From NCBI RefSeq assembly GCF_013415905.1, contig NZ_CP058909.1:2232001-2296000 (forward strand): a DNA stretch of 64,000 nt. Reading direction: 5' to 3'. Both the position numbers and the translations under genes were made by a program. This stretch comes from Halosimplex pelagicum (GTDB lineage Archaea > Halobacteriota > Halobacteria > Halobacteriales > Haloarculaceae). Below are positions 27,048 through 63,293 of this stretch, piece by piece; within the stretch, counting starts at the first letter, position 1, and every line of letters begins with the position of its first letter. The notes below the pieces were generated by a model. The model was not told where the DNA came from and searched no databases. It saw only the letters and a list, made by a program, of their open reading frames with translations.

Positions 27048-27080
27048 AGGTTTTTACCCGCCTGTAGAGTGATGAGGAGT
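27048..27080 (+). promoter_or_regulatory. Element promoter motif, copy 1
   Basis: TTTTTA at 27051-27056 is followed at once by CCCGCC and a G-rich tract that runs up to the ATG at 27081. It is most like the copy at 63263. The layout suits a leaderless or nearly leaderless mRNA. Confidence 0.5.
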
Positions 27081-27491
27081 ATGAAATTCACTTGCCCTGC
27101 GTGCGTGGAAGATGTTGAGGTTGATCCAGTACGAATCGATGGCGCTCAGTTCAACTACCGAGTCAGCTGTTCGACACCCGGCTGTGAGTACGAGACGAAG
27201 GCAAATCCGCTCCCCAGTGTCGAGGAATTCGTCCAAGCGAAGCACTACGCGATCCTCGAGACCGGTTCGCCCGGTGGTCTTCGGTCGTTCCACCACGTCG
27301 ATCAGTTCGGCATCCCTGGAGGTGCCGTGGACGTCTTCCTCTGCGTCACCGCCGCCGGAGAAGTAGTCTGGATCGTCCAGTCGATGGGCGCAACCGGCCT
27401 CTACCGCCCTGATGACCACGAGAATATCGAAGCGGTCGTCCAGGCACACACCGATCTCGAACGCGAACTGTTCGACCAGAGTACCGACTAA
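27081..27491 (+). CDS. Zinc-ribbon protein, hypothetical
   Basis: A 136 aa protein with an N-terminal zinc ribbon (FTCPACVEDV and, about 30 residues later, VSCSTPGCEY) and a soluble C-terminal domain of unknown fold. In-frame starts also exist at 27069 (GTG) and 27072 (ATG). I prefer 27081 because it lies 30 bases after the TATA-like TTTTTA at 27051. Confidence 0.65.
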   Translation: MKFTCPACVEDVEVDPVRIDGAQFNYRVSCSTPGCEYETKANPLPSVEEFVQAKHYAILETGSPGGLRSFHHVDQFGIPGGAVDVFLCVTAAGEVVWIVQSMGATGLYRPDDHENIEAVVQAHTDLERELFDQSTD

Positions 27492-27536
27492 CCTTCTGTC
27501 GTTCAGTTCTGTACGAGTTGAGGGTGATCAGCCGAA

Positions 27537-27582
27537 CCTTACCAAGTCGTTTGAACGGGGGCGTCTCATTCACTTGGTAAGG
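27537..27582. repeat. Long inverted repeat CCTTACCAAGT
   Basis: CCTTACCAAGT (27537-27547) and its perfect reverse complement ACTTGGTAAGG (27572-27582) enclose 24 bases. It lies between the convergent ends of the zinc-ribbon and HalOD1 genes, so a terminator hairpin is possible. The same CTTACCAA/TTGGTAAG pair recurs at 56664-56708 in a promoter, which suggests a protein-binding site. Confidence 0.5.
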
Positions 27583-27607
27583 TGAGCAAAAAACGACCTG
27601 CATCTTC

Positions 27608-27895
27608 TTAGGTGTGGTCACTCTGGTCGTGTTCGGGAGGCTTCCTGCATTTGTTAGCCAGCACTGCTTCGATTCCGTCACCATCGTGAACTCTTACAGT
27701 GACTCCAGAGAACGTGAAGGTCACATCTACCGCACTGGTTGAATCCTTCTTTGCCCGTTCTACCAGCTCGTTCAAAGCATCCGGGTTGATCTGCTCACCC
27801 AAGGGCGGCAACTCCGTAGGGTCGACCCCCTTCTCATCAGCAACAGTCTGGATGACCTTCATGCTGATTGGCTCGTCTTCCACTGGAATGTTCAT
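27608..27895 (-). CDS. HalOD1 domain protein
   Basis: A 95 aa protein consisting of one HalOD1 (haloarchaeal output domain 1) module: IQTVADEKGVDPTELPPLGE, then NPDALNELVE, then the beta pair VTFTFSGVTVRVHDGDGI. The domain is common in haloarchaeal signal proteins and also stands alone; its molecular role is not established. The start is the ATG at 27895 giving MNIPVEDEP. A longer upstream frame is not credible. Confidence 0.8.
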   Translation of the reverse strand: MNIPVEDEPISMKVIQTVADEKGVDPTELPPLGEQINPDALNELVERAKKDSTSAVDVTFTFSGVTVRVHDGDGIEAVLANKCRKPPEHDQSDHT

Positions 27896-28034
27896 ACTCA
27901 CTATTGTCGTTCGTTGAAGAAAACTCTGCCGTAGTGCCGGGGGTGCGGTGCTCAAGGAGTACGCCGTCCAAGAGAAAATACTGAAGGTTACCTGCCAGCC
28001 GTCGCCCACACCTCTCTTCTCCGTGAAATCCGGT

Positions 28035-28322
28035 TCACTGAGCAGCTTCGGTCGATACGAACTGACCTTCCCATTCTCGACGGGCTTCGATTTCCCGTTC
28101 GCCACGCCGTGTGATCGAGTACGAGTTCGTTCGCCGGTCGTGTTCACCTTTCTCGACGAGTCCTTTGTTGACGAGGGTGTCAAGATTCGGATAGAGGCGT
28201 CCGTGATGTATCTCTTTCTCGTAGTAGTCTTCGAGTTCATCCTTGATCGCGAGGCCGTGAGGCTCCGATTTGCCAGCGATAGCGTACAGGAGGTCTCGCT
28301 GAAAGCCAGTCAAGTCGTACAT
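28035..28322 (-). CDS. PadR-family transcription regulator
   Basis: A 95 aa PadR winged-helix protein: LTGFQRDLLYAIAG, GLAIKDELEDYY, then HHGRLYPNLDTLVNKGLVEKG, the recognition helix and wing. It likely represses a nearby promoter in response to a ligand. A/T-rich near-palindromic sequence (TATATTGTCCTATATA, near 28357-28372) lies 35-50 bp upstream of its own start, fitting autoregulation. Confidence 0.88.
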   Translation of the reverse strand: MYDLTGFQRDLLYAIAGKSEPHGLAIKDELEDYYEKEIHHGRLYPNLDTLVNKGLVEKGEHDRRTNSYSITRRGEREIEARREWEGQFVSTEAAQ

Positions 28323-28473
28323 CGTCCAATTGAAGTTCTAATCCGGTAACGTAAATATATTGTCCTATATATCCCGGAATTGATGACAGTTACTTAATCC
28401 GAACACGGACGGTTGAAAGCGGCCTATCCTCACCGCCAGCTGAAGGTTGAGTGAGATCACGGTTCTGTAAGGT

Positions 28474-28504
28474 GGGTTTGTATCACTCGGTATGTGGTAG
28501 AAGT
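28474..28504 (+). promoter_or_regulatory. Element promoter motif, copy 2
   Basis: GTGGG, then TTTGTA (28477-28482), then TCACTCGG and a G/T-rich tract. The start codon of the RPA-like gene is 94 bases after the TATA-like element, so an mRNA leader of about 65 bases is expected, unlike the leaderless copies. Confidence 0.55.
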
Positions 28505-28570
28505 GTATCATTCCAAAGGGTTTCCAGAGAAGGTTTCATCACCCGTCACGGAATAATCCACAAGAAAGCC

Positions 28571-29971
28571 ATGACTACAATCAAAGACGTCTACCAGGAC
28601 CTCGACAGCGACACCAGTTTCGAGGAGTTTGAGGAACAGGTCGAAAACAAAATCGAGGAGATGAATGGCCTCGTCGACAAGGATGCGGCTGCCGTCCTCG
28701 TCTCCGATGGTCTCACTACTGGCCGAGTACAGAACATCGAGGAGATCGACGCCGGCATGGACGAGGTGGAGTTCCTCGGGAAGATACTGACGATCGGCGA
28801 CCTCAACACGTTCTCTCGTGACGGTGAAGACTCAGACGGGACCGTCTGCAATATCGAGGTCGGCGACGAAACCGGCCAGATTCGGGCCGCCCTCTGGGAT
28901 GAGATGGCCGAAGACGCTGTCGAGGAACTTGAAGTCGGAGAGGTCCTCGAAATCAGCGGAACGCCCAAGGACGGGTACAACGGCTTGGAAGTCAGCGCCC
29001 ACGACGTAGTAGTGCAGGAGGACGTTGAGATCGGCATCGAGGCGCTCGAATCGTACCATGTCGCGGACCTCTCAGCAGGTCTCTCCGCCGTGACGATGAA
29101 GGGGCTGGTGCTCGGTACGACATCGATCAACACGTTCGAGCGTGACGACGGGAGCGACGGGCAGGTCGCCAACATCGTCATCGGCGACAAGACCGGAGAA
29201 ATCCAGGTCACGATGTGGGGCGAGGCAGCAGAAGCGGTCGATGACTACCGGGTGAAACAGAGCGTCGAAGTCACAAACGCGGACGTGCGTGATGGAGATA
29301 ACGGACTGGAACTCCACATCAGCAGTCCCGACGACATCACGCACATCAAAGAGCAGATCAAGTACATCCCCGAGACGACGCCGATCGGTGAGGCAGAGCT
29401 CGGAGACTCGGTCAACCTCGCCGGCGGTGTGACCTACCTGGACGAGAAGCGGGCCTTCGACCGGGACGACGGTTCCTCCGGTCAAGTGCGAAATCTCAAC
29501 CTCGAAGATGACTCCGGTAACATCCGAGTGTCTCTTTGGGGTGACAAAGCCGAGATGGACATCAACGTCAGCGACGAGATTCTGATTACGAACGCAGAGA
29601 TCGAACAGGGCTGGGAAGACGAGCCCGAAGCGTCGACAGGGTACCAATCGACGGTACTCATCACCGGTCGTGGGTCCTACGATGTCGAAGAAGACGAAGA
29701 AGCCGATGAGGGCGAGAAAGACGATTCCAGTAGCTCCAGCGGCTCCACAAAGAGCATCGATGAGTACGAGTCGGATGGCGACGACGCCGGCGAAGAAGTG
29801 CAAGTCGCAGGTACGGTCCTCGGAGTCGGAGAGGAGATCACTCTCGATACGCCTAACGGCGAAATCACCATCACGGGAGGCAGTGATTTCGATGTCAGGC
29901 TCGGGCAGTCTATCACGGTTCGGGGAACGCAGAACGACGACGATTCCATCGCTGCATCGGAGATCTTCTGA
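28571..29971 (+). CDS. RPA-like single-stranded DNA-binding protein
   Basis: A 466 aa protein with three consecutive OB-fold domains of the archaeal RPA type. Each has the repeating pattern of a T-F-x-R-D segment, G-x-V-x-N, then D-x-T-G-x-I-x-x-x-x-W (for example GDETGQIRAALWDE, GDKTGEIQVTMWGE, EDDSGNIRVSLWGD). An acidic Ser-rich linker and a small fourth OB-like piece follow at the C-terminus. It binds ssDNA in replication and repair. The start at 28571 (MTTIKDVYQ) is chosen over an extension of 40 codons because the family begins there. It is the first replication gene of the element-like region. Confidence 0.9.
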   Translation: MTTIKDVYQDLDSDTSFEEFEEQVENKIEEMNGLVDKDAAAVLVSDGLTTGRVQNIEEIDAGMDEVEFLGKILTIGDLNTFSRDGEDSDGTVCNIEVGDETGQIRAALWDEMAEDAVEELEVGEVLEISGTPKDGYNGLEVSAHDVVVQEDVEIGIEALESYHVADLSAGLSAVTMKGLVLGTTSINTFERDDGSDGQVANIVIGDKTGEIQVTMWGEAAEAVDDYRVKQSVEVTNADVRDGDNGLELHISSPDDITHIKEQIKYIPETTPIGEAELGDSVNLAGGVTYLDEKRAFDRDDGSSGQVRNLNLEDDSGNIRVSLWGDKAEMDINVSDEILITNAEIEQGWEDEPEASTGYQSTVLITGRGSYDVEEDEEADEGEKDDSSSSSGSTKSIDEYESDGDDAGEEVQVAGTVLGVGEEITLDTPNGEITITGGSDFDVRLGQSITVRGTQNDDDSIAASEIF

Positions 29972-30015
29972 CGGACAGGCAAGCTTTCAAGAGACCAATT
30001 CCACAATAACAACCC

Positions 30016-31029: not shown

Positions 31030-31052
31030 CCGTTTACCGATCAACTCCTACG

Positions 31053-37462: not shown

Positions 37463-37521
37463 CACACCCCCATCTCCTGATTTCATCTCACCAGAGCATC
37501 GCGTATCTTCAGAGAGGGGTG

Positions 37522-37552
37522 GGGTTTTTGTCTCCCGATTGGAAGTGGTGAA
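37522..37552 (+). promoter_or_regulatory. Element promoter motif, copy 3
   Basis: GGTGGGG, then TTTTTG (37525-37530), then TCTCCCGATTGG and a G/T-rich tract, ending just before the TTG start of the methyltransferase gene. Confidence 0.55.
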
Positions 37553-37557
37553 GTGAA

Positions 37558-38603
37558 TTGAGTGAGAGCGCGGATCTGACATCGTTTTCCCAGACTCAAC
37601 CTCAGGACGGTGACGAAGATGATCCTGAAAGTGAGCCGTCACCGCCCGAAGAAGGTGAAAACGGTGACGATAGTAGTGATGAGTACGGGACTCCTCGATG
37701 GCTGATTCGACGATTACAGGAGGCACTTGTTGGAAGTGGGCGGACTCTGTTCGACTTAGACCCAACTAGTGGGGCAGAACCGCTACAGATTGCAGAAATG
37801 CGATATACGAAACAAGACGATGGCCTACAGCAACCCTGGGCACTCCCGGCGGTCAATACGATCTACCTGAACCCTCCGTACTCTGATCCAGAACCCTTCC
37901 TTCGGAAGCTCAAGCAGATCATCGACCCCGACGACCCGGACGCCCCCTCGTTGGGAATCAGCCTAACGAAGTCCGATACCAGCGGTTTCACGACCACCTT
38001 ACCGAAGCGCGGGTCATCTGTTTCCTCGATACTCGCCTATCGTTCCACGGCGGTGACCAAGGTGCCAAATTCCCGAACGCGATCGGCGTTTTCGGAGAGC
38101 CCCACGAGGAACTCTTGGAGACGCTCTCTGACATCGGCGAACTCTACAGCCGGGTTGAGGTTGAGACGGCGCTCGAGCAGCAGCGTCTCGATGACCTCAT
38201 CAGTGACGGGGGCTGTATGGCAGCAATCCCGGTCGGGAAATCGACGAGTCCGGCCGAAAACGAATCCGCCTCTCACTCACCCTCAGCTACGTACACGTCG
38301 TTAGATTTCGTATCTCCTCACGACCTAATCGAGATGACGTTCGACACATCCTCCCTCGCGACGAGACATCGTGACCTTCCGAAAAAGGTCGAACTGCGTG
38401 TCCTCCCGAATGGAAGAGAAATTGAACCAGATACGGGGACCATCACTATCGATACCATCGGGAAAACGTCCGAAGGAGAAGACGTCTGCGTGAGTATTCG
38501 GAACTCCGCCGAGATTGCGAGTCACTTAGAGGTGAGTGTAGCCGTTGCATCCGGTGGGTGGGAGTTAGCAACCCCGAAAACCGTCAATATTATAGATGGT
38601 TGA
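37558..38603 (+). pseudogene. DNA N6-adenine methyltransferase (phage Dam type), frameshifted
   Basis: The gene begins with a TTG (MSESADLTS) and an acidic linker. It then has the phage-type Dam pattern (EYGTPRWLIRRL, then YLNPPYSDP as the catalytic NPPY motif, then GISLTKSDTS). The frame is lost near 37983: after DTS the expected continuation RFHDHLTEARVICFLDTRLSF and GGDQGAKFPNAIGVFG is in the next frame and runs on to a TGA at 38603. Restoring one base would give a single frame of 349 codons. Either a real one-base deletion or a sequence error explains this. If inactive, the element has lost its own adenine mark. Confidence 0.8.
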
Positions 38604-39284: not shown

Positions 39285-39304
39285 TTCGGTCGCCGCAGAG
39301 GATC

Positions 39305-39341
39305 TATTTCTATCCCCCGAAAGCGGACAGAAGGTAGTATC
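39305..39341 (+). promoter_or_regulatory. Element promoter motif, diverged copy 4
   Basis: TTTCTA (39307-39312) followed by TCCCCCG, 35 bases before the ATG at 39342. The core fits the family but the downstream G/T tract is weaker. Confidence 0.35.
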
Positions 39342-39542
39342 ATGATAGGCCCGTTGACCGCATACAGCAACTCCAGTATCGAGTTGGACACACCGACGCC
39401 CACTCAGGTTGTCGTAACCTTCCAGACTGTAGCCTACTGCAGCTTGTTCTTCTGGCTATGGCAAGTAGCAGTTGGATACGCCGTCCTCTCCCTCCTCTGT
39501 GCGTTCGGGCTTGGAACATTCCGATTCCTAATCTTAGACTAA
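39342..39542 (+). CDS. Small membrane protein
   Basis: A 66 aa protein, hydrophobic from residue 23 on (VVVTFQTVAYCSLFFWLWQVA and VLSLLCAFGLGTF), with one long or two short membrane helices. No family is recognised. Confidence 0.5.
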   Translation: MIGPLTAYSNSSIELDTPTPTQVVVTFQTVAYCSLFFWLWQVAVGYAVLSLLCAFGLGTFRFLILD

Positions 39543-41082: not shown

Positions 41083-41165
41083 ACTATTGATTCTCCCTAA
41101 CATCATTTAAAGGGTCGGACTGGTGTTCCGTCCGCTGAAAACGGTCGTATGCTCGCTGACACAGT

Positions 41166-41195
41166 TGGTTTTTATCTCTCGGAAGGGGTGAGAGT
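41166..41195 (+). promoter_or_regulatory. Element promoter motif, copy 5
   Basis: TTTTTA (41169-41174), then TCTCTCGG and AAGGGGTGAGAG up to the ATG at 41196, exactly 27 bases after the first T. This is a reference example of the leaderless form. Confidence 0.6.
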
Positions 41196-41708
41196 ATGGT
41201 TGGTAATGATGCGCTCCCGGTTGATCTGGAGCCAGCCTGTCAGAGCGACCCTATCGAGTGTGAAGGCGTGATAACCATCGAGAACCCAGCGTTTGTGTTC
41301 GACCTTCCGGTCAACGAGGTTGTCGCCGAATTCAAGCAACAACTCCAAGAACAGGGCGCTGACCGATCGTGGGAGAACGACTACGATGGGTTCGAAGTAT
41401 TCCATCTGAAGGCAGAGAACGCAATTCGAAAGGTGGTTGACCACACCCACCCTCGAGTCAGCGAGTGTTCCTCCCCCGGCATCGTGATCGAAAATATCGG
41501 GCCGGATGCTGAACGTCACTACGACAGCTGGGAAGATGTCGCAGAAGCGTGGGTTCGGGAATGGATTCGAATGTATAATTCGATCCTGAAAGCCCGGACA
41601 GAGGAGGACATCGACCAGCTGCAAGTGGACATCGAGGAGGCTGGCCGAAACAACCTCCTGACCACCGAGGACGTAAAAGCAGTCACAGAACAGCTGACGG
41701 GCCCCTAA
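41196..41708 (+). CDS. Hypothetical protein
   Basis: A 170 aa acidic, mainly helical soluble protein with no motif I recognise. It is the only gene between two copies of the element promoter motif, so it is probably monocistronic. Confidence 0.6.
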   Translation: MVGNDALPVDLEPACQSDPIECEGVITIENPAFVFDLPVNEVVAEFKQQLQEQGADRSWENDYDGFEVFHLKAENAIRKVVDHTHPRVSECSSPGIVIENIGPDAERHYDSWEDVAEAWVREWIRMYNSILKARTEEDIDQLQVDIEEAGRNNLLTTEDVKAVTEQLTGP

Positions 41709-41723
41709 TCAAGCAGATAGAGT

Positions 41724-41754
41724 TGTTTTATAGCTCCCGTTTGGGGTGATGGGG
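41724..41754 (+). promoter_or_regulatory. Element promoter motif, copy 6
   Basis: TTTTATA (41726-41732), then GCTCCCGTTTGGGGTGATGG. The start codon of the downstream gene is 96 bases after the TATA-like element, so a leader of about 69 bases is expected. Confidence 0.6.
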
Positions 41755-41822: not shown

Positions 41823-43295
41823 ATGTCTCAAGCAAGTTCCAACGCAAATCCAGTCGAACAAGTCGAAACGGCAGCCAGTATCGTGAGTGTGACCGACCTC
41901 GTCGAACAGAACGGCACAGTCCCGTTCCTCGGCGTCAACGACGCCGCCGATGCCGAGTACCCGGACACCATCAACGCTCGGGGCCGGCGATATGTCCAGG
42001 ACGGCAAACAATCGTTCAAGACCGCGCTGTCGGTGCTCCCACACGCCGGTGAGGGCGACCTCTGGGCCGATAACGAATTCGTCGCTCCCAGTGACGACGG
42101 GACCGTCGACGTCAACCTCGATGCGATTCGGAACGTCCACGGTCTGGACGTCGCCGCCCTCGAACAGCGCACGGGGATGGACCTCAAAACGATGGTCCAG
42201 CAGGCCGACCCCGAGCCGCTCATCGGCGTCGGCACCCACAAGGACATCATCGACCGGCGGCGACTCGCCCTTCGCACGCTGGGCTTCGATGTGAAGTTCC
42301 GGTGGCAGATCGCCTCCAGTCGCTACTCGCCGGGCGATATGCGGGAGTTCTTCAAGCGGAAGATCGCCGCCTGTCAGAAACACGGCGCAGAGAACGCCTT
42401 CGGGTGGATTCGGCACTACGACTGGGGCGGTTCGGTCACGCTCACGACCATCTATCCCTCGAAGGCCTACGCGATCGACCCCGCTGACGATACCGACATC
42501 GACCTGCAGAACGGCGAACTCACCATCGCCGCCGGCGAGGACTTCGATGAGGGCGACATCGACAACTCGGAGCCGACCACCATCTACTACGGCGACCAGC
42601 TGAAGTACGACTTCCGTGGCCACCAGAAACTCTCCGTGACGCCTGTCATCTACATTCCCGAGGTCGATACGATGATTCCCCTGCCCCACCCCGAGGCAGA
42701 CCTCGCACGGAAGCACACGGGCAACCTGATGGAAGACGCCATCGACTGGCACGAGCGCGTTCTCTCGACGCTCGATGACCTCTGTGAGACGGTCAACCAG
42801 GAGATCAAACGCGCCCGACTGGTCGCCATCGACTTCTCGGACCTGCCGTTCAGCGTCGAAGACTTCTACGGCTACATCGGTGTCGGGAACGACGACTACG
42901 TCGAAGCCGCCGCCGACCGCGCGACGGCGCTGGCCAAGCCATCGGACCAACCGACGCTGTGGAACCTGCAACTGAGCCTCAAGCTCGCGATTCTGGACAA
43001 TTTCGACGGCAATCGAGCCGGAAAAACCTACCGCGAGTACCAGGAACTCGCCGGCGAGATTCTTCGCCATCCGGCGACGATGATCACGACGGCGAAAGAG
43101 CAGTTCCGACTCGAGGCCGACCAGGACGATGACGAGGACGTGGCCCTCGATGCGGAGCAGACGACGCTCGCCGAATCCCTCGAAGACGTGATGGACCTGA
43201 CTGGCGTCACGGAGAACCGAATCGATGCGACGGAGGCACAGCAGATCGAACAACGTGTGCAACAGCGGCTTCCCGACAGTGGGGGTGAGAACTGA
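41823..43295 (+). CDS. Large hypothetical protein of the MoxR/VWA gene trio
   Basis: A 490 aa soluble protein with no recognised catalytic motif. The central part (YSPGDMREFFKRKIAACQKHG, then FGWIRHYDWGGSVTLTTIYPS) vaguely recalls DUF932-like proteins of phages and plasmids, but this is uncertain. The C-terminal third is helical. Its stop overlaps the start of the AAA ATPase gene (ATGA), so it is an obligate neighbour and possible substrate or scaffold of that ATPase. Confidence 0.65.
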   Translation: MSQASSNANPVEQVETAASIVSVTDLVEQNGTVPFLGVNDAADAEYPDTINARGRRYVQDGKQSFKTALSVLPHAGEGDLWADNEFVAPSDDGTVDVNLDAIRNVHGLDVAALEQRTGMDLKTMVQQADPEPLIGVGTHKDIIDRRRLALRTLGFDVKFRWQIASSRYSPGDMREFFKRKIAACQKHGAENAFGWIRHYDWGGSVTLTTIYPSKAYAIDPADDTDIDLQNGELTIAAGEDFDEGDIDNSEPTTIYYGDQLKYDFRGHQKLSVTPVIYIPEVDTMIPLPHPEADLARKHTGNLMEDAIDWHERVLSTLDDLCETVNQEIKRARLVAIDFSDLPFSVEDFYGYIGVGNDDYVEAAADRATALAKPSDQPTLWNLQLSLKLAILDNFDGNRAGKTYREYQELAGEILRHPATMITTAKEQFRLEADQDDDEDVALDAEQTTLAESLEDVMDLTGVTENRIDATEAQQIEQRVQQRLPDSGGEN

Positions 43296-45109: not shown

Positions 45110-45152
45110 GCAGCGCGAGTCGGCACCTTCACATCCGACACTCTCGGTAGAG

Positions 45153-45180
45153 TGGTTTTATGCCCCGATCAAGATTGCGT
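45153..45180 (+). promoter_or_regulatory. Element promoter motif, copy 7
   Basis: GAGTGG is supplied by the upstream bases, then TTTTA (45156-45160), then TGCCCCGATC. It lies before a short frame without a normal start codon. Confidence 0.4.
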
Positions 45181-45356
45181 TCCACGAGCAGGCGACTGTC
45201 CACGCCGAGGACAAGGCGGTACTCGAATGCGGTGAAGACGCCCGGCGTTCGTACTCGATGGCCACACTCAAGCAGACGCTGATCGCAGTCTTCGGCGCGG
45301 CACAGTCGGTCACGAGAGCCGAGGACGAGCAAGCGGACCTCGGGAGCTACTTCTGA
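45156..45356 (+). CDS. Short frame with no clear start codon
   Basis: The frame encodes IKIAFHEQATVHAEDKAVLE and ends in DEQADLGSYF. It reads like a real haloarchaeal protein of about 60 aa, and a promoter-motif copy lies where its 5' end should be. However, no ATG, GTG or TTG occurs in frame before the ATG at 45258, which would leave only 32 aa. It may be a truncated gene or use an unusual start. Confidence 0.35.
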   Translation, partial: FYAPIKIAFHEQATVHAEDKAVLECGEDARRSYSMATLKQTLIAVFGAAQSVTRAEDEQADLGSYF

Positions 45357-45386
45357 CTGTAGTGTTCGGCTGGAGGTCCGCAGAGT

Positions 45387-45415
45387 GGGTTTGTATCTCT
45401 CGGTTTGAGTAGAAG
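45387..45415 (+). promoter_or_regulatory. Element promoter motif, copy 8
   Basis: GTGGG, then TTTGTA (45390-45395), then TCTCTCGGTTTGAGTAGAAG directly before the ATG at 45416, 26 bases from the first T. This is one of the best matches. Confidence 0.6.
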
Positions 45416-45610
45416 ATGTCTCAGGAGAGTGCAGCGGAGGTGTCTCCAGCGGAAGCGGGGGACCTCACGTGCGCGGAGTGTGGTGAAGCACGACCGCCGG
45501 GGTCGAAGTTCTGCCCGGCCTGTGAAGACCAGCCTGGAGCCGTCCAGTACGCACAGGCCCCGCCGGGAACGCGGTCGCGACGGCCGTCCCACGGCAACAC
45601 CACCCGGTAA
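45416..45610 (+). CDS. Small zinc-ribbon protein
   Basis: A 64 aa protein with a compact zinc ribbon (LTCAECGEARPPGSKFCPAC, four cysteines) and a Pro/Arg-rich C-terminal tail. It starts directly at a promoter-motif copy and ends 16 bases before the VWA gene, so it is the first gene of that transcript. Its role is unknown; it may be an adaptor for the VWA protein. Confidence 0.65.
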   Translation: MSQESAAEVSPAEAGDLTCAECGEARPPGSKFCPACEDQPGAVQYAQAPPGTRSRRPSHGNTTR

Positions 45611-48992: not shown

Positions 48993-49014
48993 GTCACAGA
49001 CCCTCTGCCGGGGT

Positions 49015-49045
49015 CTGTTTTTGTCCTCCGGCTGAGGTGAGGAGG
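49015..49045 (+). promoter_or_regulatory. Element promoter motif, copy 9
   Basis: TTTTTG (49018-49023), then TCCTCCGGCTGAGGTGAGG. The next start codon is 94 bases after the first T, so this belongs to the long-leader class. Confidence 0.55.
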
Positions 49046-49111: not shown

Positions 49112-49519
49112 ATGACGTACAACATCACCGACAAACAGAGAGAACGGCTGCGAACCGTCGTAGAGATCGACGACCCCCGTGAACGGGTTGTTGAGTTAGC
49201 CGAGGTGACGACGGAAATCGGAGAGCAGAACGACGCCCCCGATATGGAGGCCCTCGCGAGACACGTCGCGACTCACGAAGTCGTGGGGACAGGGATGGGA
49301 ATGGCGCTTTCAGAGGTCCTCGAGCATCTCTCCGACCTGACGCAACTTCGGGACGGACTCGATATCCCCACGCACGGTGGGGACGGGGATCTACTGGAAG
49401 ACATGACGCTGCACGAGCGATTCGACCACGACGTGTACTATGCGCTTCAAACCCTCTACGGGAAGCTCATCTACGACGAGTTGCCAGACCACCAGAAGAC
49501 GGTAATGAACCTACGATGA
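49112..49519 (+). CDS. Hypothetical protein
   Basis: A 135 aa acidic, mostly helical soluble protein with no recognised motif. It is preceded by a long-leader promoter copy with a hairpin and coupled by ATGA to the next gene. Confidence 0.6.
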   Translation: MTYNITDKQRERLRTVVEIDDPRERVVELAEVTTEIGEQNDAPDMEALARHVATHEVVGTGMGMALSEVLEHLSDLTQLRDGLDIPTHGGDGDLLEDMTLHERFDHDVYYALQTLYGKLIYDELPDHQKTVMNLR

Positions 49520-50514: not shown

Positions 50515-50544
50515 TACGATAGCCGATTTCTGTTCAGTGGACCC

Positions 50545-50583
50545 CAGTTTGTATGCCCCGTTTTGGTTGAGGGAAATCTGAAT
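50545..50583 (+). promoter_or_regulatory. Element promoter motif, copy 10
   Basis: TTTGTA (50548-50553), then TGCCCCGTTTTGGTTGAGGG. The ATG at 50584 is 36 bases after the first T. It drives a run of four genes with short gaps or overlaps. Confidence 0.55.
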
Positions 50584-51048
50584 ATGAGTGTTCAGTCGCC
50601 TACAAGCCAAAGTCCGCATACCAAGGAGAAGGCCGCCGGTCGGTTCATCAAGCAGCTGCTGGAACTGCGGCGAGGCCAGCATCTCAGGGTCCACCTGGAG
50701 GACTGTCCGGTTCCTGACTTCCATTCGGAAGACAACGTGTACGAGGTCACCAAGACGGTGGTAGCGACCTCGAAAAGCGGCGAGGAGTGTTACTTCAAGA
50801 TTTTTCTCGGGTCCGATCACGTCCACTCGATGAGTGATCCCGTATTCAAAATCGTCGTCTCTCGAAACGTTCCCAACAAGATTGGGATGACACGCCCGAA
50901 GGCCGAATGGGGGAAGCACTGGATGAACGCTCGCACCGGGAAGAATCGATGGGGGAACAACAAGTGGAAGCAACTACACGGCAACCCTGAGGACATCACG
51001 ATCGTCGCCGACGTCAATCGGTGTTCAGAGTGTGGACGTCCCCTGTAG
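50584..51048 (+). CDS. Hypothetical protein with C-terminal Cys pair
   Basis: A 154 aa basic-to-neutral soluble protein. The last residues RCSECGRPL hold a CxxC pair, possibly half of a zinc site shared with a partner or a dimer. The start at 50584 follows the promoter motif. The next gene begins nine bases after its stop. Confidence 0.6.
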   Translation: MSVQSPTSQSPHTKEKAAGRFIKQLLELRRGQHLRVHLEDCPVPDFHSEDNVYEVTKTVVATSKSGEECYFKIFLGSDHVHSMSDPVFKIVVSRNVPNKIGMTRPKAEWGKHWMNARTGKNRWGNNKWKQLHGNPEDITIVADVNRCSECGRPL

Positions 51049-52880: not shown

Positions 52881-52987
52881 GTATTTACATTACCGATGAT
52901 TAGACAAATATATCTTAGGCATTCCTTCAGCACCACGATAGGAACCCTCGCTATTTGCAGGACGAACAAGACTATCTCTGAAGAAGT

Positions 52988-53017
52988 GGGTTTCTACCTC
53001 CCGATTTGGGTAGGAGA
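52988..53017 (+). promoter_or_regulatory. Element promoter motif, copy 11
   Basis: GTGGG, then TTTCTA (52991-52996), then CCTCCCGATTTGGGTAGGAG up to the ATG at 53018, exactly 27 bases from the first T. This is one of the best matches. Confidence 0.6.
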
Positions 53018-53389
53018 ATGAGTATGAAAGAAGTGGTCGCGGACATCCCCGATGAGGTTTCGGGAACACCCGTTCAGACTATCAAGTCGGGAGCTCGGCT
53101 TCCGTGCCCGCATTCCGACTGTACCTTCCAGTACTGGAACATCGGCGACCGGCGTGGGAAACGAACGCCGACGGTACAGGACAAGTTCAGTGCGCGAGAC
53201 GAACCCTGTCGGCACTACCATACGAAGTGGAGTCCTGCGAGTACAGAGTCGCTCGAGACTGTACTTGCGGATGCTGCCGAGAGCGCGTCGGAAATCTTCT
53301 GCGTCGTCGACGAGCAGATCCCACTCGACGATTCGACCCTCGTGGTAGCCGTCTACGTCGAGCAGCAGACGACCTTAGGAGGGTTCTGA
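53018..53389 (+). CDS. Hypothetical protein with Cys/His cluster
   Basis: A 123 aa protein. LPCPHSDCTFQYW and later EPCRHYHTKW could form a zinc site of Cys and His. The ATG at 53018 lies 27 bases after the TATA-like element, so I prefer it over the TTG at 53006. It stops six bases before the methyltransferase gene and should be co-expressed with it. Confidence 0.6.
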   Translation: MSMKEVVADIPDEVSGTPVQTIKSGARLPCPHSDCTFQYWNIGDRRGKRTPTVQDKFSARDEPCRHYHTKWSPASTESLETVLADAAESASEIFCVVDEQIPLDDSTLVVAVYVEQQTTLGGF

Positions 53390-53395: not shown

Positions 53396-55228
53396 ATGTC
53401 GACACGATCAGACGCACTTGAGGACGGCCAGCGTCAGCGACAATCCCGGTCGGTCCCATCGGTCACCTTCTGGACCGATACGACGGAGGGATCAACGTTC
53501 CAATCGGACAAGCTCAGGCACTGGACCGAGTCGCACCTGGAGGACGCCGAGCGAATCCTCAACCCCTGCGCCGGAGTTGCATCACTCAGCGTCGACGGTG
53601 AAGTCCTCCGGGTGGACGTCGACGAGGAGGCGGACGCCGACCTCCACATCGATTTCCGTGACCTACCTGACCACGTGGAGACCGAGTCGTTCGACGCGAT
53701 CGTCTACGACCCGCCCTACACCCCGAACCAAGCCCGCTCGAAGTACGGGCTGGACATCTCTGACGAGGAGTTCTACTTCTACAGCCGGAAGGTGAAGGCG
53801 TTGTTCGACCAGCTCCTCGCGCCGGGCGGCGTGTTCATCCAGTTCGGATACTCGACGGCCGCAATGCCCCGAAACTTTGGCTACCAGACGATGAGCGTCG
53901 GGTTGTTCAACAAACTCGGTTCGCAGAATGACTACCTCGGTGTCGCGGCCCGCAAGCCGACCAGCCCGACCCAGCAGGTGTCGCCGGTCGCGGTCACGGA
54001 AACGGTCACGCAGAACGCCGGTGCAAACGAGATCGACGCTGGCGACATCTCCACTGGCGGGAACGGCGGGAACAGCATCGAGATGCGGTACAAACAAGCT
54101 GCCAACGACACCAGCTTCGAGGACGTGCTCGCCGGCGCTGTCGGAGAGTGGGTGCGTCCCGGCGACCGTGTCCTACATATCTTCGAGGACGAGCCCCGCG
54201 TCTCGCTATCTGGTAGTCGGTACACGACATGCCGCTACGACTGCGTGGACATCAACTCGCCGGACGATCCTGCGGCGGCTGACGTAGTCGAGACGCCGTG
54301 GAACATCGACGCTCGGTTCGGAACCGGCGTCTTCGATGTGATCGTACTCGATATTCCGCATTCGGCGTTCCAGCGGAACATCCGCACGCCACAGGAAGAG
54401 GCGAGTGGCGGGTCGGACGTGACACATATCGACACGGCACTGAAGCGGAGTCTCACCGACCTCGTGCGTGGCGACGGTGGTCGAGTCGTCCAGATCGGGC
54501 GGACGGCGACGTTGATGTCGGGCAACGACTACGACTATCATCGCGCCGGTGTGAGTATTCTCGAGCATCCAGCCGTCTCGCACGACCGGGTCGTCGCCGT
54601 CGACAAGAAACCTCACGAGAATCTGGAGATCGTCGGGCTCGGTGACGGCGAGGTCGACCGGCTCCACCAGCACCCGCACGGAGCGCCGGGAATCACGAGT
54701 AAACACCGACGGTCAGCGTTTGAACCGACAGCAGACAGCGAGTTCTGCGTTCACTGTGGCAACTCCTTCTTCCACCATCCAGCAGCGTACGTCGCCTGTC
54801 CTGAATGCGGTGCGGCAGCAGGAACCGGCTGTGTGACCGAGGACGGCACGCCGATTCCGCCAAGCGGTAGAGACCATCGAATCACGGCCGACGATGTTCA
54901 CCAGGACCGGTTGGACATCGCTGCTGCGAAGCACTCTGGAGACTGTAACAGTAAGTCCCCGTCCTATCTGGATGCCGATCCAGAGATAGTCTCAGGACTG
55001 TTGGACGAGCTCTCTTCGAGCGCGTTCGACCGGGAGTGGGGACTGCTTGAGCGCAAACGACTGAAGGCGGACATCGAAGACCGATTCACGTCGGAGCCTC
55101 GGTCAATAGACCTGCCCGAACGAATCATCGACGAGTTGACGGGCAAAAACACGCACCAGAAAGCGGCCCCGGCCTCAACCTCGGATACGCGCTCGACAAG
55201 TGAGACCAGCTTGGACGACTTCCTGTAG
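53396..55228 (+). CDS. DNA methyltransferase with duplicated fold, zinc ribbon and PIP-like tail
   Basis: A 610 aa protein. The first half is a Rossmann methyltransferase with catalytic motif DPPYT (105-109) and, further on, the LLAPGGVFIQFGYS strand. The second half repeats the fold but has DIPH (319-322) where DPPY would be expected, so it may be inactive. A zinc ribbon follows (C451, C454, C468, C471). The last residues, TSLDDFL, match the core of a PCNA-interacting box. It probably methylates adenine or cytosine-N4 in DNA during replication. No restriction enzyme gene is adjacent, although a GIY-YIG-like nuclease lies 3.3 kb downstream. Confidence 0.82.
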   Translation: MSTRSDALEDGQRQRQSRSVPSVTFWTDTTEGSTFQSDKLRHWTESHLEDAERILNPCAGVASLSVDGEVLRVDVDEEADADLHIDFRDLPDHVETESFDAIVYDPPYTPNQARSKYGLDISDEEFYFYSRKVKALFDQLLAPGGVFIQFGYSTAAMPRNFGYQTMSVGLFNKLGSQNDYLGVAARKPTSPTQQVSPVAVTETVTQNAGANEIDAGDISTGGNGGNSIEMRYKQAANDTSFEDVLAGAVGEWVRPGDRVLHIFEDEPRVSLSGSRYTTCRYDCVDINSPDDPAAADVVETPWNIDARFGTGVFDVIVLDIPHSAFQRNIRTPQEEASGGSDVTHIDTALKRSLTDLVRGDGGRVVQIGRTATLMSGNDYDYHRAGVSILEHPAVSHDRVVAVDKKPHENLEIVGLGDGEVDRLHQHPHGAPGITSKHRRSAFEPTADSEFCVHCGNSFFHHPAAYVACPECGAAAGTGCVTEDGTPIPPSGRDHRITADDVHQDRLDIAAAKHSGDCNSKSPSYLDADPEIVSGLLDELSSSAFDREWGLLERKRLKADIEDRFTSEPRSIDLPERIIDELTGKNTHQKAAPASTSDTRSTSETSLDDFL

Positions 55229-56708: not shown

Positions 56709-56755
56709 GTTGGGGGAAGAAAGCCCACTAATCCACCGTTCGTGTGGATGAGAGA

Positions 56756-56786
56756 CTGTTTTTACATCTCGGTGGATGATGGAAGA
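56756..56786 (+). promoter_or_regulatory. Element promoter motif, copy 12
   Basis: TTTTTA (56759-56764), then CATCTCGGTGGATGATGG. The next real start codon is at 56878, so a leader of about 92 bases is expected. Confidence 0.5.
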
Positions 56787-56877: not shown

Positions 56878-57879
56878 ATGTCAGTAAGAGAAATCCAATC
56901 CAGTTCCAACCTACCGGCGCTTCGGTTGCCTCCGGGAGCACTTTCCCCGGAAGACAGGCAATACGAACACGACCCAGCTACTGAACCATCAGCCATCGAA
57001 CCGATCGAACACAAGTTGCGGGTAGACCTGATGACCGCAGGGATGCCCGATTCTAGCCGACAGCTCCTGAACGAATACAGCCACTACCGAGCAGGGCCGG
57101 GTGACGACGACCCGTGGTGGTCAAAATCTCACGATAAGCCCCTCGCCATCCTGTACGCAGAGCGGACAATCAAACGGCAATGGGCCTCTGAAAAGGAATA
57201 CTTCGAGGAGTACGAATCTGATTCGGTTATCGAGGATGCGCCTGCGTACTTGGAACAGCAACTCCGTAACGCTCGCGCAGCGAGTAATCCCGATACGAAG
57301 GTTGAGAACGAGCGCGAGAACCGAGAAAAGTGGTACAACCTCATGCCGTGGAAGAACCTGTACCCGATATTCAAAAAGGACAACATCGGGGAGCTGATCG
57401 AAACCAACCATCGGTGGCCGTCACAGGCTGAAGCACTCCACGGCCAGGGGCGAGAAAAGACAAGCTTCGTTGGGGTCCTGGTCATCCCGAATGACCGTGA
57501 CGAGAAGACTGCCGCAAACCAGTACGGCGTGGACAGCGCCTACGTCTACAAAGAACAACAGTTCGCTTCCCGTGGTAATGCGGACCTGAAGATACCGACT
57601 GACTATGGTATCGAATTGCCCGCACCCCTACTGATGGGCAAGTATCCGAACGGCTCAAACTACCTCTTCATCCCGTGGTCGTCGGGGTTGGTCTGCCAAG
57701 GGCCGTTCAAGCAGAACAAGCCCTATCGGGTTTCGTGTAAGCACGAGGCTCTTGCAGCGTTCGTGCTCGCTCAACAGGATGGGATCTTCCTCCCTGTCGA
57801 CGAAGGGCTAGAAGTCCCCGCTCGGGCACGGCGGTTCATCGACCCGAAGATCGCGACAAGCCACACGCCAGAACAATAG
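56878..57879 (+). CDS. Hypothetical protein
   Basis: A 333 aa soluble protein with a helical middle (residues about 85-160, rich in Glu and Arg) and a beta-rich C-terminal half. No signal, membrane helix or known motif is visible. It is first in a run of four soluble genes ending with the GIY-YIG-like protein. Confidence 0.6.
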   Translation: MSVREIQSSSNLPALRLPPGALSPEDRQYEHDPATEPSAIEPIEHKLRVDLMTAGMPDSSRQLLNEYSHYRAGPGDDDPWWSKSHDKPLAILYAERTIKRQWASEKEYFEEYESDSVIEDAPAYLEQQLRNARAASNPDTKVENERENREKWYNLMPWKNLYPIFKKDNIGELIETNHRWPSQAEALHGQGREKTSFVGVLVIPNDRDEKTAANQYGVDSAYVYKEQQFASRGNADLKIPTDYGIELPAPLLMGKYPNGSNYLFIPWSSGLVCQGPFKQNKPYRVSCKHEALAAFVLAQQDGIFLPVDEGLEVPARARRFIDPKIATSHTPEQ

Positions 57880-59361: not shown

Positions 59362-59416
59362 TCTCTACTGGTTCTATCACGCAGAATTATAATCCTCGAA
59401 CTGTTACGAACTGCTA

Positions 59417-59734: not shown

Positions 59735-59751
59735 GACGGCTTAGCCCCCAA

Positions 59752-59789
59752 TTCTTATATCTCCGTAAGATGAATGCCGAAGTACGCTT
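59752..59789 (+). promoter_or_regulatory. Element promoter motif, diverged copy 13
   Basis: TTATAT (59755-59760) directly followed by CTCCG, 35 bases before the ATG at 59790. Only the TATA and core parts fit the motif. Confidence 0.35.
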
Positions 59790-60119
59790 ATGATAGGAAC
59801 GATCAGTTTCCTTATCGCACTGGTAGTCGGTAGTCTCTTCACAGCCTCTATGATCGGGTTTGGTGTCCAGTGGGCGGCAAGCGAATTCGAGTTAGGACCG
59901 ATCCCCCGAGCTTTCATCGGCGGATTCTTCATTATCACGACGGTCCTAGCGACAGCGATCGACCTCGATATCGTTCGAGCCATCCCGATCCTGCTGTTTA
60001 TCTTCTATCTCGGCACATTCCAGATCGGGACACGAATCGGCCACGTTGTTGGGATGCAAGCCCCAGACGACAACGACCCACCCGAGATTTTCTTCGAGCT
60101 GTTCAACCGATACCAGTAA
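59790..60119 (+). CDS. Small membrane protein
   Basis: A 109 aa protein with three hydrophobic segments (MIGTISFLIALVVGSLFTAS; AFIGGFFIITTVLATAI; IPILLFIFYLGTFQIG) and an acidic tail. It lies 36 bp before the STT3-like gene and may be part of the same membrane complex. The family is unknown. Confidence 0.55.
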   Translation: MIGTISFLIALVVGSLFTASMIGFGVQWAASEFELGPIPRAFIGGFFIITTVLATAIDLDIVRAIPILLFIFYLGTFQIGTRIGHVVGMQAPDDNDPPEIFFELFNRYQ

Positions 60120-60155
60120 CTAACATCGAAGACCACCTGTTCAAGCCACCAATCT

Positions 60156-62876
60156 ATGGAGTTGAATACATCCAACGTCCCCTCTCTACATGATACCTAC
60201 CACACTATCGTGAACGCCAGCTGGGAATCCGTCGCCCACGCGATCGTGATGGTCGGTTTGCTGGGATTCATCTTCGCCAACCGTGTTCGAAACTACACGA
60301 ACGTCATCCGAGCAGACGGCACAGTTGTATTTCAATCTGCAGACGGCTGGTATCATCAACGAGCTACCGTCTATACTGTCGAGAACTACCCAGAGACACT
60401 CAACTTTGACCCGTACACCGGTTTCGATGCGGGAAATCAAGTAGGTCAGTTCGGGACCCTCTTTGATCAAATCCTGGCGACAGTGGCGCTCGTCATCGGT
60501 GGGGGGAACCCGTCGATATCAACTATCAATTCCGTTCTTGCATTCACCCCCCCTATACTTGCTGTCGCTGCCGGCATTTCAGTATACTATCTCAGTAAAG
60601 CGATCACGAACCGCTGGGGTGGCTTAACCGCTGTCGGGTTATTAGCCCTCACACCCGGCCTCTTCCTCTCGCACTCGATGGTCGGATTCATTGACCACCA
60701 CATCGCAGAGACTGTGTTAGTCTCCATCTCTCTCCTTTGCTGTGTGAGGTTCACTAAAGCAGCTACTGAAATCGGGCTTGGGCTAACCCAATTCAAAACA
60801 TCGGCGCTCAACTCACCGATAACTTGGAGCCTCTTCGCAGGCATAGCAAATGCGGTCTACCTCGTAATTTGGCCCCCAGGATTACTATACATCGCGATCT
60901 TGAGTGTATTCCTTGCAGCCGCTATCATCACCGAGTATCTAAAGGAGAATGACCCAGTTCCGCTTTCAGTTGCCGGTGCAGCGATGATGTTAACCAGCGG
61001 GATCGCAACCTTACCATTCGCTCCGACCGCCTCGCTCTCGGTGACAACGTTGAGCTTCATCCAAGTACTGATGCCGATTTCAGTCGGTATCGGGTGTCTC
61101 TTCCTCGGCTATACCGCACAAAAATTCGGCACCTGTCCGATTCGTAAGGTGGGCTACCTATTGGCTCTCGGGGCCGGTTCATGTTCCGTATTGGCGATCC
61201 TCGCATTAGTGAAACCCAGCATTATCGACTTCTTCATTCAGAACAGCAGTCGCGTATTCTGGTTCATAGGTCACGAGAGGGGAACACAAATCGCAGAAGC
61301 GGATACCCTCTCCAACCCGTTCAGATTCGGGTTCATCACCTACGGCTTCGCACTTATCGCGGCTATCGTCGGTTGGGTTCTGATGGTTGGTGAAGTGTTC
61401 TATAATGAATCAGGCACCCCAGCACGCCTCCTATTCGTCATTTTCACGCTGTTTATGACATCTGCGACCATTACCCAGCCTCGGTTCGACTACTATCTCG
61501 TAATCGCCGTTGCCGTCTTGACTGCGTACTCCATCTACAGCCTCCACCAGTACTCCCAGAAGTTGCTGGTTTCACGAGACATCACAACTCCAGAACTCAA
61601 GTCGAAGATAGCAGCAACAGGGGTTGCTATTCTGGTACTGATCCCACTGGTTCTCTCAGGCGCACCGATCGTAGCCGCAGATAGCTACACCTCGCCATCC
61701 AGCCACAACGGATGGACGCAATCCTTCGACTGGATCGAATCTGAGACTCCTGAATTCGGTTCTTATGGTGTAGAGTCATCCAACCAGCTCGACTACAACG
61801 GAGAGTTCCCAGCAGTTGACGACTACACCTATCAAGAAGGTCAGTATGGGATTCTAAGTCGGTGGGGGATCGGGCATCGACTAACCGTTGAAACAAGGCG
61901 AGTGCCCGTCTCAAACCCTCACCAACAGCATAGCACCGTTGCTGCAGATGTCCTTTTAGCTCCGTCAGAAGATACAGCAATAGACATACTCGACTCGAAA
62001 TTGGGCGAAGGTAGCGGTGTCCGATATGTCGTCCTTGGTCAACCGTGGGGAAGCGGTGATCTCCGGTCGTTTACTTCCCCCGCAGCATCCGAGGGTGAAT
62101 ACGACATTCAACCGGATCAGCTTGGGATAACTCTGCAAGACGCGAATACCGGAAGTTTCGTCCGTACTCTTCAGACAGAGCGGAGTTACGAGAGTCTAAG
62201 GACTCGACTATACCAATTCCACGGAAGTGCGACCACACAGTCTTCGTTCGTGATCCACGGCAAAGGCGACCTCTCTTCCAGAGATACAGTAACCTCCGAC
62301 AATATCGACATAGAGGAGTATGAAAACGCCATTGCTGCATCGAACCCCAGTAGTGGAAACTCCGCATTACACGGCGGTCTCTATGGTGAATCGCCACAAC
62401 AAATCGATGCACTCCAGCATTTCCGTCTTGTTCACGCGAGTGAGGGGACAGTAGCAGAGCATCCAGAATCGATCGCAGCAGAACACTCAGAGGTTAAATC
62501 TGGCGAGACATCTGCTGTAAAGACCTTCGAGCGGGTTCCCGGTGCAACCATCCAAGGAGAAGCACCTGAAAACACGACTGTAAAGGCCAGTGTCGAACTT
62601 AGGATCACCACGACCGGAAAAACGTTCACCTACACCCAGTACGCGACAGCGAACGAAAACGGAACATTCGATCTGGTAGTCCCCTACGCAACGACAGGAT
62701 ATAGCCAGTACACAACCGAAGATGGATATACGAACACCTCGATCCGCGCAGAAGGCCCCTACCGGATAACGACAGTCAGTGACCCCACATCCGATGTAGT
62801 CAGAATCGGGATTCCAGAAGGAGCGGTCCTCGGCGAGGAAACGATCAGTACCACAGTCCAGGTAGAAGGGTCGTAG
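60156..62876 (+). CDS. STT3/AglB-like oligosaccharyltransferase, divergent
   Basis: A 906 aa protein with an N-terminal half of about 12 membrane helices and a large extracellular C-terminal domain, the layout of archaeal AglB, which transfers lipid-linked glycans to Asn of surface proteins. The first acidic motif is SADGWYH (D63) and the second is FIDHHIAE (180-185). The expected WWDYG signature is replaced by SRWGIGHR (W570), with the Asp missing, although the following VPVSNPHQQ matches AglB. The enzyme may be altered in acceptor choice or inactive. Its place in an accessory region suggests element-specific surface glycosylation. Confidence 0.82.
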   Translation: MELNTSNVPSLHDTYHTIVNASWESVAHAIVMVGLLGFIFANRVRNYTNVIRADGTVVFQSADGWYHQRATVYTVENYPETLNFDPYTGFDAGNQVGQFGTLFDQILATVALVIGGGNPSISTINSVLAFTPPILAVAAGISVYYLSKAITNRWGGLTAVGLLALTPGLFLSHSMVGFIDHHIAETVLVSISLLCCVRFTKAATEIGLGLTQFKTSALNSPITWSLFAGIANAVYLVIWPPGLLYIAILSVFLAAAIITEYLKENDPVPLSVAGAAMMLTSGIATLPFAPTASLSVTTLSFIQVLMPISVGIGCLFLGYTAQKFGTCPIRKVGYLLALGAGSCSVLAILALVKPSIIDFFIQNSSRVFWFIGHERGTQIAEADTLSNPFRFGFITYGFALIAAIVGWVLMVGEVFYNESGTPARLLFVIFTLFMTSATITQPRFDYYLVIAVAVLTAYSIYSLHQYSQKLLVSRDITTPELKSKIAATGVAILVLIPLVLSGAPIVAADSYTSPSSHNGWTQSFDWIESETPEFGSYGVESSNQLDYNGEFPAVDDYTYQEGQYGILSRWGIGHRLTVETRRVPVSNPHQQHSTVAADVLLAPSEDTAIDILDSKLGEGSGVRYVVLGQPWGSGDLRSFTSPAASEGEYDIQPDQLGITLQDANTGSFVRTLQTERSYESLRTRLYQFHGSATTQSSFVIHGKGDLSSRDTVTSDNIDIEEYENAIAASNPSSGNSALHGGLYGESPQQIDALQHFRLVHASEGTVAEHPESIAAEHSEVKSGETSAVKTFERVPGATIQGEAPENTTVKASVELRITTTGKTFTYTQYATANENGTFDLVVPYATTGYSQYTTEDGYTNTSIRAEGPYRITTVSDPTSDVVRIGIPEGAVLGEETISTTVQVEGS

Positions 62877-62940
62877 TTCGGGCCACGACCAAAGCTTATG
62901 GGAATCGCCTACAAAGCTACGAAAGTAGCCACGACAACTC

Positions 62941-63246
62941 ATGGCACGCTCCAGTGTAGCTCCAAGTCTGCCGCACCGACCCCAATGGCTCTCAACGCCG
63001 ATCGGGAAAACCGAAAACGGCGCAACAGTCACGGACATCACTCTCCAACCGGCACGCCGTTGCGAACTGAGTCTCCGGTTGACAATCGAATTCGCCAACG
63101 ACCACCGGGAACCAGTGCGCTACTACCGGGTCAAGTACACTGGGGGCAAATGGGTGAACACAACGCCAGACGAGCCAAGTATCTGTGAAACCATCATCAG
63201 CTGGCTTGAGGAGAACGTAGGCGCTCCACCACTCCAGGTGGAATAG
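62941..63246 (+). CDS. Hypothetical protein
   Basis: A 101 aa protein, beta-rich in the middle (VTDITLQPARRCELSLRLTI) with a helical end. No motif is recognised. The start is uncertain; the ATG at 62941 gives a plausible N-terminus. Confidence 0.5.
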   Translation: MARSSVAPSLPHRPQWLSTPIGKTENGATVTDITLQPARRCELSLRLTIEFANDHREPVRYYRVKYTGGKWVNTTPDEPSICETIISWLEENVGAPPLQVE

Positions 63247-63259
63247 GAACTCGGTGAAT

Positions 63260-63293
63260 CAGTTTTTACCCGCCGATCAGGAGAGGAACTGAT
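63260..63293 (+). promoter_or_regulatory. Element promoter motif, copy 14
   Basis: TTTTTA (63263-63268), then CCCGCCGATCAGGAGAGG, 31 bases before the ATG at 63294. It is very similar to copy 1 at 27051, at the other end of the region. Confidence 0.5.

Follow-up and report, generated by a model that had tools for sequence, protein, structure and literature searches.

The stretch of DNA analysed here (the window, 64,000 nucleotides) comprises bases 2232001-2296000 of the single 5.199-Mb contig of Halosimplex pelagicum (NZ_CP058909.1). From about position 27000 onwards it carries copies of a recurrent upstream motif, about a hundred of which are spread over a region that resembles an integrated conjugative mega-plasmid and encodes a transcription factor TFB and a TATA-binding protein TBP of its own. 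In a 364-kb stretch covering this element, a Pfam scan covered 58 proteins, a minority of the 401 open reading frames (ORFs) called; the calls were made with our own script, without a published gene finder, and starts may be wrong. Pfam and PHROG matches comprise RPA OB domains, thymidylate synthase, AAA proteins, a Dam-like methylase, a CobS-like AAA protein, AglB, ribonucleotide reductase, a VirB4/HerA-like ATPase, XPD-type helicases, DNA methylases, TFB, TBP, CARDB proteins, PCNA, an NrS-1-type primase, Orc1/Cdc6 and a second, divergent TFB-like protein.

The VirB4-type ATPase has 956 amino acids (aa), and its best matches, encoded on plasmid-size contigs, share 47-51% identity with it across some 700 aa. 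It is 25% identical to the VirB4-like protein of plasmid pHH126 and 22% to that of pHTS96, and matches at 1e-8 were found in 252 of the 392 genomes of the order. No match was obtained for PF03432 or PF08751, the two relaxase families searched; oriT was not sought. A jumbo provirus, suggested by ribonucleotide reductase, thymidylate synthase and the CobS-like protein, was dropped as an explanation after the VirB4 relatives and further protein matches had been found. A search of IMG/VR revealed no relative of the VirB4-like protein, a phage nucleotide search with window positions 27000-50000 gave no match, and the one PHROG terminase match (7e-12; 28 proteins scanned against PHROGs) fell on the VirB4-like protein itself. 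The GC content is 0.52-0.65 (5- and 10-kb bins) across 2146-2571 kb, while 19 of the 20 control stretches have 0.65-0.71 and the remaining one 0.55. Since it is low well beyond the motif zone, the element is part of a longer low-GC island of more than 400 kb. No tRNA was detected in the ten flanking stretches scanned, and the ends of the element were not found.

The analysis confirms the motif and extends its zone far beyond that first noted. The cut-off for a position matrix built from all sites was set on two pools, namely the reverse strand of the element and 20 control stretches of 20 kb elsewhere in the genome. With this matrix 129 forward-strand positions pass, corresponding to 98 distinct sites in 274 kb, the outermost at 2259051 and 2529598, and reaching about 235 kb past the window and thus beyond the view of the original prediction. 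At the same cut the reverse strand of the element yields 5 positions, which fall at 4 places and never precede a reverse gene, and the controls yield a single one (800 kb strand-bases). The copies are dense just after the stretch at 2312-2357 kb that carries the VirB4-like gene. The original prediction had described the motif as element-wide and rare elsewhere, which is supported by a 26-mer pattern (at most 3 mismatches) with 47 of its 49 genome matches lying forward inside the element; the comparison proposed as a check, made here against the 20 control stretches, likewise shows enrichment, given the one control position.

For the 14 sites originally listed in the window a hold-out matrix was used, trained on 86 motif sites which all lie outside it (Table 1). 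Twelve of the sites hold, that at 27051 as a fair match only, while 45156 and 59755 fail. Eleven outscore every control (16.2-34.7; best control 14.49). All 11 forward sites of the window scoring at least 14 are situated at or after 27000, and a first-order Markov simulation expects 0.05 sites per 37 kb. The first 26 kb had been reported to be free of sites, and before 27000 all forward-strand scores are indeed below 12; one reverse-strand position there reaches 12.

The consensus comprises, in this order, GGTGG, TTTNTR, CYCYC, a short A/T-rich stretch, GGGTG and GRRG, followed by an ATG mostly about 24 to 39 bases from the first T of the TTTNTR box. Counted from this T, GGTGG occupies columns -5 to -1, TTTNTR 0-5, C-bearing pyrimidines 7-11, a G column 12, A/T 13-15, GGG 17-19, T column 20 and purines 21-26. 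An ATG opening at least 40 codons is found at +20 to +60 in 73% of the sites compared to 20% of random forward positions, and the first such ATG lies at +24 to +39 in 61 of the 98 sites, with peaks at 26-27, 31 and 35-36. No other TATA box is seen, because AT content shows no peak at any position between -60 and -1. Seventeen sites are located downstream of a divergent minus-strand gene, with gaps of 57-660 bp according to our own gene calls, three of these sites depending on one doubtful call of 43 aa. The position of the box therefore speaks for the promoter function originally proposed. The three ATGs put forward as starts of leaderless transcripts, 41196, 45416 and 53018, are all present (+27, +26 and +27 from the first T), but 45416 opens only a 64-codon frame, different from that of the 1187-aa gene at site 45390.

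For haloarchaea, a TATA box of the sequence TTWT and a TFB-recognition element (BRE) of the sequence CGAAA are proposed in the accessible part of PMC4983044. The TTTNTR box matches a TTWT-type TATA box at the proper distance from the start in the 61 sites mentioned, and the motif consensus lacks a BRE of the CGAAA type, showing GGTGG in its place. BRE-like words were counted upstream of 31/92 forward genes without motif (shuffled mean 15.9), 12/65 genes with motif (9.2), 6/25 reverse genes (2.9) and 5/24 genes of the VirB4 stretch (4.0). The corresponding values for TATA-like words are 14/92 (4.8), 12/65 (3.3), 5/25 (1.9) and 5/24 (1.1).

Two features of the motif, its strand bias and an inverted repeat with covarying arms, were missed by the original prediction. 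A site precedes 65 of 178 forward genes heading a unit, compared to 0 of 25 reverse ones (Fisher 4e-5), and 74 of all 271 forward genes compared to 0 of 27 reverse genes; p-values are only guides here, because neighbouring sites are not independent. Among the forward leading genes, sites are found for 2/26 in the VirB4 stretch, 13/32 in the part before and 50/120 in the part after it. A scan of plasmid pHH126 detected 18 sites, every one in plus orientation, and 14 lie within 102.9-124.2 kb; the transfer genes of this plasmid, at 69.6-81.7 kb, have the minus orientation, which applies to 46 of its 115 annotated genes in total. G068:C1, a contig of a related genome, carries sites in both orientations, arranged in two blocks.

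The inverted repeat lies between the box and the start. Plasmid copies of the motif show it plainly (e.g. CCCCTC-AATGGGT-GAGGGG). In the element sites, the longest complementary run between the left arm (columns 5-11) and the outer right arm (20-29) has a mean of 3.49, compared to 3.19 when arms are re-dealt among sites (0/5000). The result holds for re-dealing among 8 or 6 neighbouring sites (0 and 1 of 5000), within right-arm GC classes (1/5000) and with slightly wider arms (2/2000); the inner right segment gives no covariation signal in the element sites. This register-free run test was used in place of column-by-column pair counts, which were dropped because the floating register diluted the signal. 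Recent duplication is not the cause of the covariation, since the flanks of the most alike pair of sites are 44% identical. The rare purines of the left arm are matched as 3-mers in 24 of 44 cases compared to 14.4 expected (0/5000; with a wider right arm 16.2 expected, 23/5000) and as 4-mers in 13 of 44 (16 and 63 of 5000). Two other genomes contribute 22 plasmid sites, of which 19 are distinct and many homologous; here the effect is larger than in the element, with a run of 4.95 versus 4.09 (0/2000). Six single-stranded DNA folds gave z values of -1.9 to -3.1. Allowing G-U pairs lowers z from 4.17 to 2.96, and allowing C-A pairs lowers it to 2.49. Because the arms covary as Watson-Crick pairs without gain from G-U, we read the inverted repeat as a dyad acting at the DNA level. 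Neutral quasipalindrome correction could also yield such covarying arms. No basal promoter needs such covarying arms downstream of its TATA box.

A site at 2457774 lies 88 bp ahead of the TFB gene of the element (349 aa). The same association is seen on plasmids. A pattern search of 145 related genomes revealed no second genome with a comparable count, and motif clusters in two relatives, on contigs G045:C3 and G068:C1. On G045:C3 the motif directly precedes a TFB-family gene which matches 252 plasmid records. In the genome of G068:C1 the motif pattern has 10 matches and the reversed control pattern 7; its case is therefore carried by the clustering and the site orientation scan and not by the count. 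Box and dyad were found upstream of all 16 plasmid TFB genes examined (16 of the 252 records) and of 0/6 other TFB genes, a comparison judged by eye and not blind. The motif precedes the plasmid TFB gene of PHS2 in strain R1. Starting from the dyad, we scanned one genome per species (84,980 species) for one 19-base form and obtained 50 loci, which were divided into haloarchaeal and other loci, and assigned to genera, by record titles. A TFB match by tblastn follows within the next 1.4 kb, some stretches being shorter, at 31 of the 35 haloarchaeal loci, compared to 0 of the 15 loci in other organisms, and 29 of the 31 matches start 54-61 bases on. Among the four remaining haloarchaeal loci, the first codons are unchanged in two and different in one, and the last comprises 67 bases only. 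The motif is thereby linked to plasmid TFB genes across 19 named genera, promoters which are mostly orthologous and therefore not independent. Five plasmid-like TFBs are encoded elsewhere in the Halosimplex genome, which contains 35 TFIIB-repeat matches in total; the upstream DNA of one was readable and shows a weak variant of the motif (score 5.0). A further TFB gene, of ordinary type, lies ahead of the motif zone within the first 26 kb (window 13620-14669; genome 2246091-2246639). High-scoring motif copies also occur singly in related genomes (G006:C1:1250370, score 30.8; G039:C6:22404, 31.2), with no TFB match within a 15-kb stretch at either locus.

Based on these data we consider the motif, with modest confidence, as a promoter class of a haloarchaeal conjugative mega-element integrated in the chromosome, with the element TFB as the most likely specificity factor. 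The host RNA polymerase would be brought to the motif promoters through TBP and TFB and would begin transcription some 25 bp downstream of the TTTNTR box, giving transcripts with a short leader or none. The element TFB, whose own gene bears the motif, would most likely confer specificity, perhaps together with the element TBP, and the dyad between box and start would work in DNA. The genes served by this class would be forward-strand genes, including those for methylases and RPA/SSB-like proteins and many small ones, and largely not the VirB4 module. The dedicated TFB/TBP pairing suggested in the original prediction is thus plausible, considering the TFB, TFB-like and TBP genes of the element and the motif in front of TFB genes, an association which is a correlation.

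Several observations weigh against this interpretation. We know of no TFB that reads DNA between the TATA box and the start, and for this reason the dyad may need another protein. The element TFB falls outside the clades of plasmid TFBs on a long branch and shares more identity with ordinary TFBs (up to 48%) than with that of pHH126 (36%), and the TBP gene lies on the minus strand without motif. At the cut used, 113 of the 178 forward leading genes have no site, and 10 of the 98 sites are inside called genes. The TTTCTG and TTTGTG boxes of plasmid copies are poor TATA boxes. Regarding the dyad, the covariation weakens when arms are re-dealt within GC classes of both arms (24/5000), a stricter purine test with centred trinucleotides is null (8/44 versus 7.3), and the folding-energy test is weak (8/500).

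The main rival, which we regard as unlikely, is an operator: a dimeric regulator encoded by the element would bind the dyad and block or switch about 100 ordinary promoters, in the manner of the mycobacteriophage L5 stoperators, TFB being just one of the regulated genes. With its width of about 20 bp and its place between TATA box and start, the inverted repeat is situated where binding of an archaeal repressor would obstruct the polymerase, plasmid sites such as CCCCTC-N7-GAGGGG resemble an operator, and the element shares with pHH126 a PadR-like regulator (58% identical). However, if one protein recognised fixed half-sites, the arms should be conserved and not covary, the TATA-like box and the strand bias belong to the motif, and a homologue of the PadR-like protein is also encoded on a Halorussus plasmid stretch that yielded no motif. 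Covarying arms would be expected of a hairpin in leader or intercistronic RNA, involved in translation control or processing, in which case TTTNTR would not be a TATA box; the right half of the motif in fact resembles a Shine-Dalgarno sequence (GGTGA, GGAGG) near the start codon. This is improbable, since G-U pairs are not tolerated and 17 sites stand behind a divergent gene, with no other AT-rich box upstream. Moreover, Rfam gave no match at E values up to 1 in the 27-64 kb searched. TTTNTR and GGTGA resemble common haloarchaeal signals, and the sites might accordingly be ordinary basal promoters with ribosome-binding sites, alike by chance or composition. Given the one control position, the absence of sites before the 25 reverse leading genes and a BRE position reading GGTGG instead of the CGAAA proposed in the accessible part of PMC4983044, we regard this as hardly credible.

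It is very improbable that the motif is a single-stranded DNA promoter, i.e. that a hairpin forms on the strand entering by conjugation and the genes are read before second-strand synthesis, as with Frpo in F-like plasmids. This would account for the one-strand bias in the element and pHH126, the DNA-type pairing of the arms, the presence of methylase, ArdC-like and RPA/SSB-like genes behind motif copies and the dense cluster of sites after the VirB4 stretch, and in bacterial plasmids anti-defence genes of the leading region are on the transferred strand, as the accessible part of PMC11541004 describes. Yet the TTTNTR box lies outside the hairpin, whereas Frpo mimics a duplex including the promoter boxes. 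The two relaxase families gave no match, single-strand transfer in haloarchaea is an assumption here, G068:C1 has sites in both orientations, and the strand bias may merely mirror co-oriented backbone genes. Bolder still, and improbable, is a combination in which the roughly 100 one-strand sites would become active once the incoming strand folds, with the element TFB (and TBP) as reader, so that establishment genes (methylases, RPA/SSB, ArdC-like) would be switched on at entry. If true, this would be to our knowledge the first single-strand or hairpin promoter system in archaea.

TFB and TBP genes are numerous in haloarchaea, and we know of few clear promoter signatures for TBP-TFB pairs reading separate promoter classes. 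The motif, sharply defined and tied to plasmid TFB genes, is a candidate for such a signature, with copies on plasmids of two laboratory organisms, Haloarcula hispanica (pHH126) and Halobacterium salinarum (PHS2), and it may serve to find establishment genes of archaeal conjugative elements. In the open-access literature searched, as far as titles and opening abstracts go, no such motif is described on haloarchaeal plasmids; subscription papers were mostly outside this search. Plasmid-borne TFB and TBP genes are also known from Halobacterium NRC-1 and have been proposed as readers of promoter classes, but the accessible part of that source names no plasmid promoter motif (PMC2121645).

The intergenic repeats (class I and II) of halovirus HF2 are likewise repeated, element-specific haloarchaeal promoters conserved around TATA box and start, with the TATA box at -26 and a viral regulator proposed (PMC8707807). 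Within the accessible part of this source, they differ from the motif in number (nine versus about 98), in sequence and in belonging to a virus instead of a VirB4-bearing element, and a 9-bp inverted repeat is described in one of them (IR4.5) with no mention of a class-wide dyad. The HF2 beta 10-mer TCTTTAAGTC has two one-mismatch matches in the window, to which this search was confined, compared to 2.09 expected, neither being in the motif zone. In SIRV2 and other archaeal viruses, a common sequence around TATA box and BRE precedes many early, likely anti-defence genes, and two such early-gene sequences contain inverted repeats taken as repressor sites; according to the available text, hosts and sequence are others and the repeats overlap the BRE, whereas here they lie between TATA box and start (PMC11065993). 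The hairpin promoters Frpo and ssi similarly have SSB and anti-defence genes in their neighbourhood, on the strand that is transferred, but as far as the accessible text shows they hold bacterial -35 and -10 boxes within the fold; here the box is 5' of the dyad and the sites span 270 kb (PMC11541004). Their confinement to one strand is shared by the sites of the element and of pHH126, not by those of G068:C1. Mycobacteriophage L5 stoperators, many like sites silenced by one repressor, and the virion-polymerase promoters of N4, which are hairpins in DNA, both belong to bacterial phages, and here no such repressor or polymerase was identified.

Table 1. Sites of the original prediction in the window, rescored with the hold-out matrix
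Feature	Positions in the window	Strand	Hold-out score; other basis
Motif site (fair), first T 27051	27045..27078	+	12.2; 17.2 with all-site matrix
Motif site 28477, precedes RPA-type OB-domain gene (called start 28571, end 29971)	28471..28504	+	23.1; Pfam
Motif site 37525, precedes Dam-like DNA methylase ORF 37558-38304 (TTG start)	37519..37552	+	24.6; Pfam Dam
Motif site 39307, precedes ORF 39342-39542	39301..39334	+	16.2
Motif site 41169, ATG 41196, downstream of divergent minus-strand gene	41163..41196	+	31.1
Motif site 41727 (originally 41726), precedes ORF 41823-43295	41721..41754	+	26.6
Motif site 45390, head of 1187/1195-aa VWA gene (GTG 45429 or TTG 45405)	45384..45417	+	32.0
Motif site 49018, precedes ORF 49112-49519	49012..49045	+	26.2
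Motif site 50548, precedes ORF 50584-51048	50542..50575	+	22.5
Motif site 52991, ATG 53018; next gene 53396-55228 methyltransferase-like	52985..53018	+	34.7; PHROG match
Motif site 56759, precedes ORF 56878-57879	56753..56786	+	19.8
Motif site 63263, precedes ORF starting 63294	63257..63290	+	20.5
Originally listed site 45156, not supported	45150..45183	+	6.9
Originally listed site 59755, not supported	59749..59782	+	-15.1

Two element proteins resemble PHS2 of Halobacterium salinarum: the TBP shows 67.6% identity over 99 aa to a reading frame of this plasmid (26522), and a protein of 1342 aa shows 63% over 736 aa. In pHH126 a type I-B CRISPR-Cas set (L110 38700-48308) separates the transfer genes from the cluster of motif copies. 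The VirB4-like gene is directly followed by an ORF of 2303 aa (2331134-2338045) with no Pfam or PHROG match. Three consecutive ORFs of 782, 781 and 782 aa occupy 2318919-2326260; the two searched have no Pfam match. The AglB-type oligosaccharyltransferase gene of the element is situated at window positions 60156-62876.

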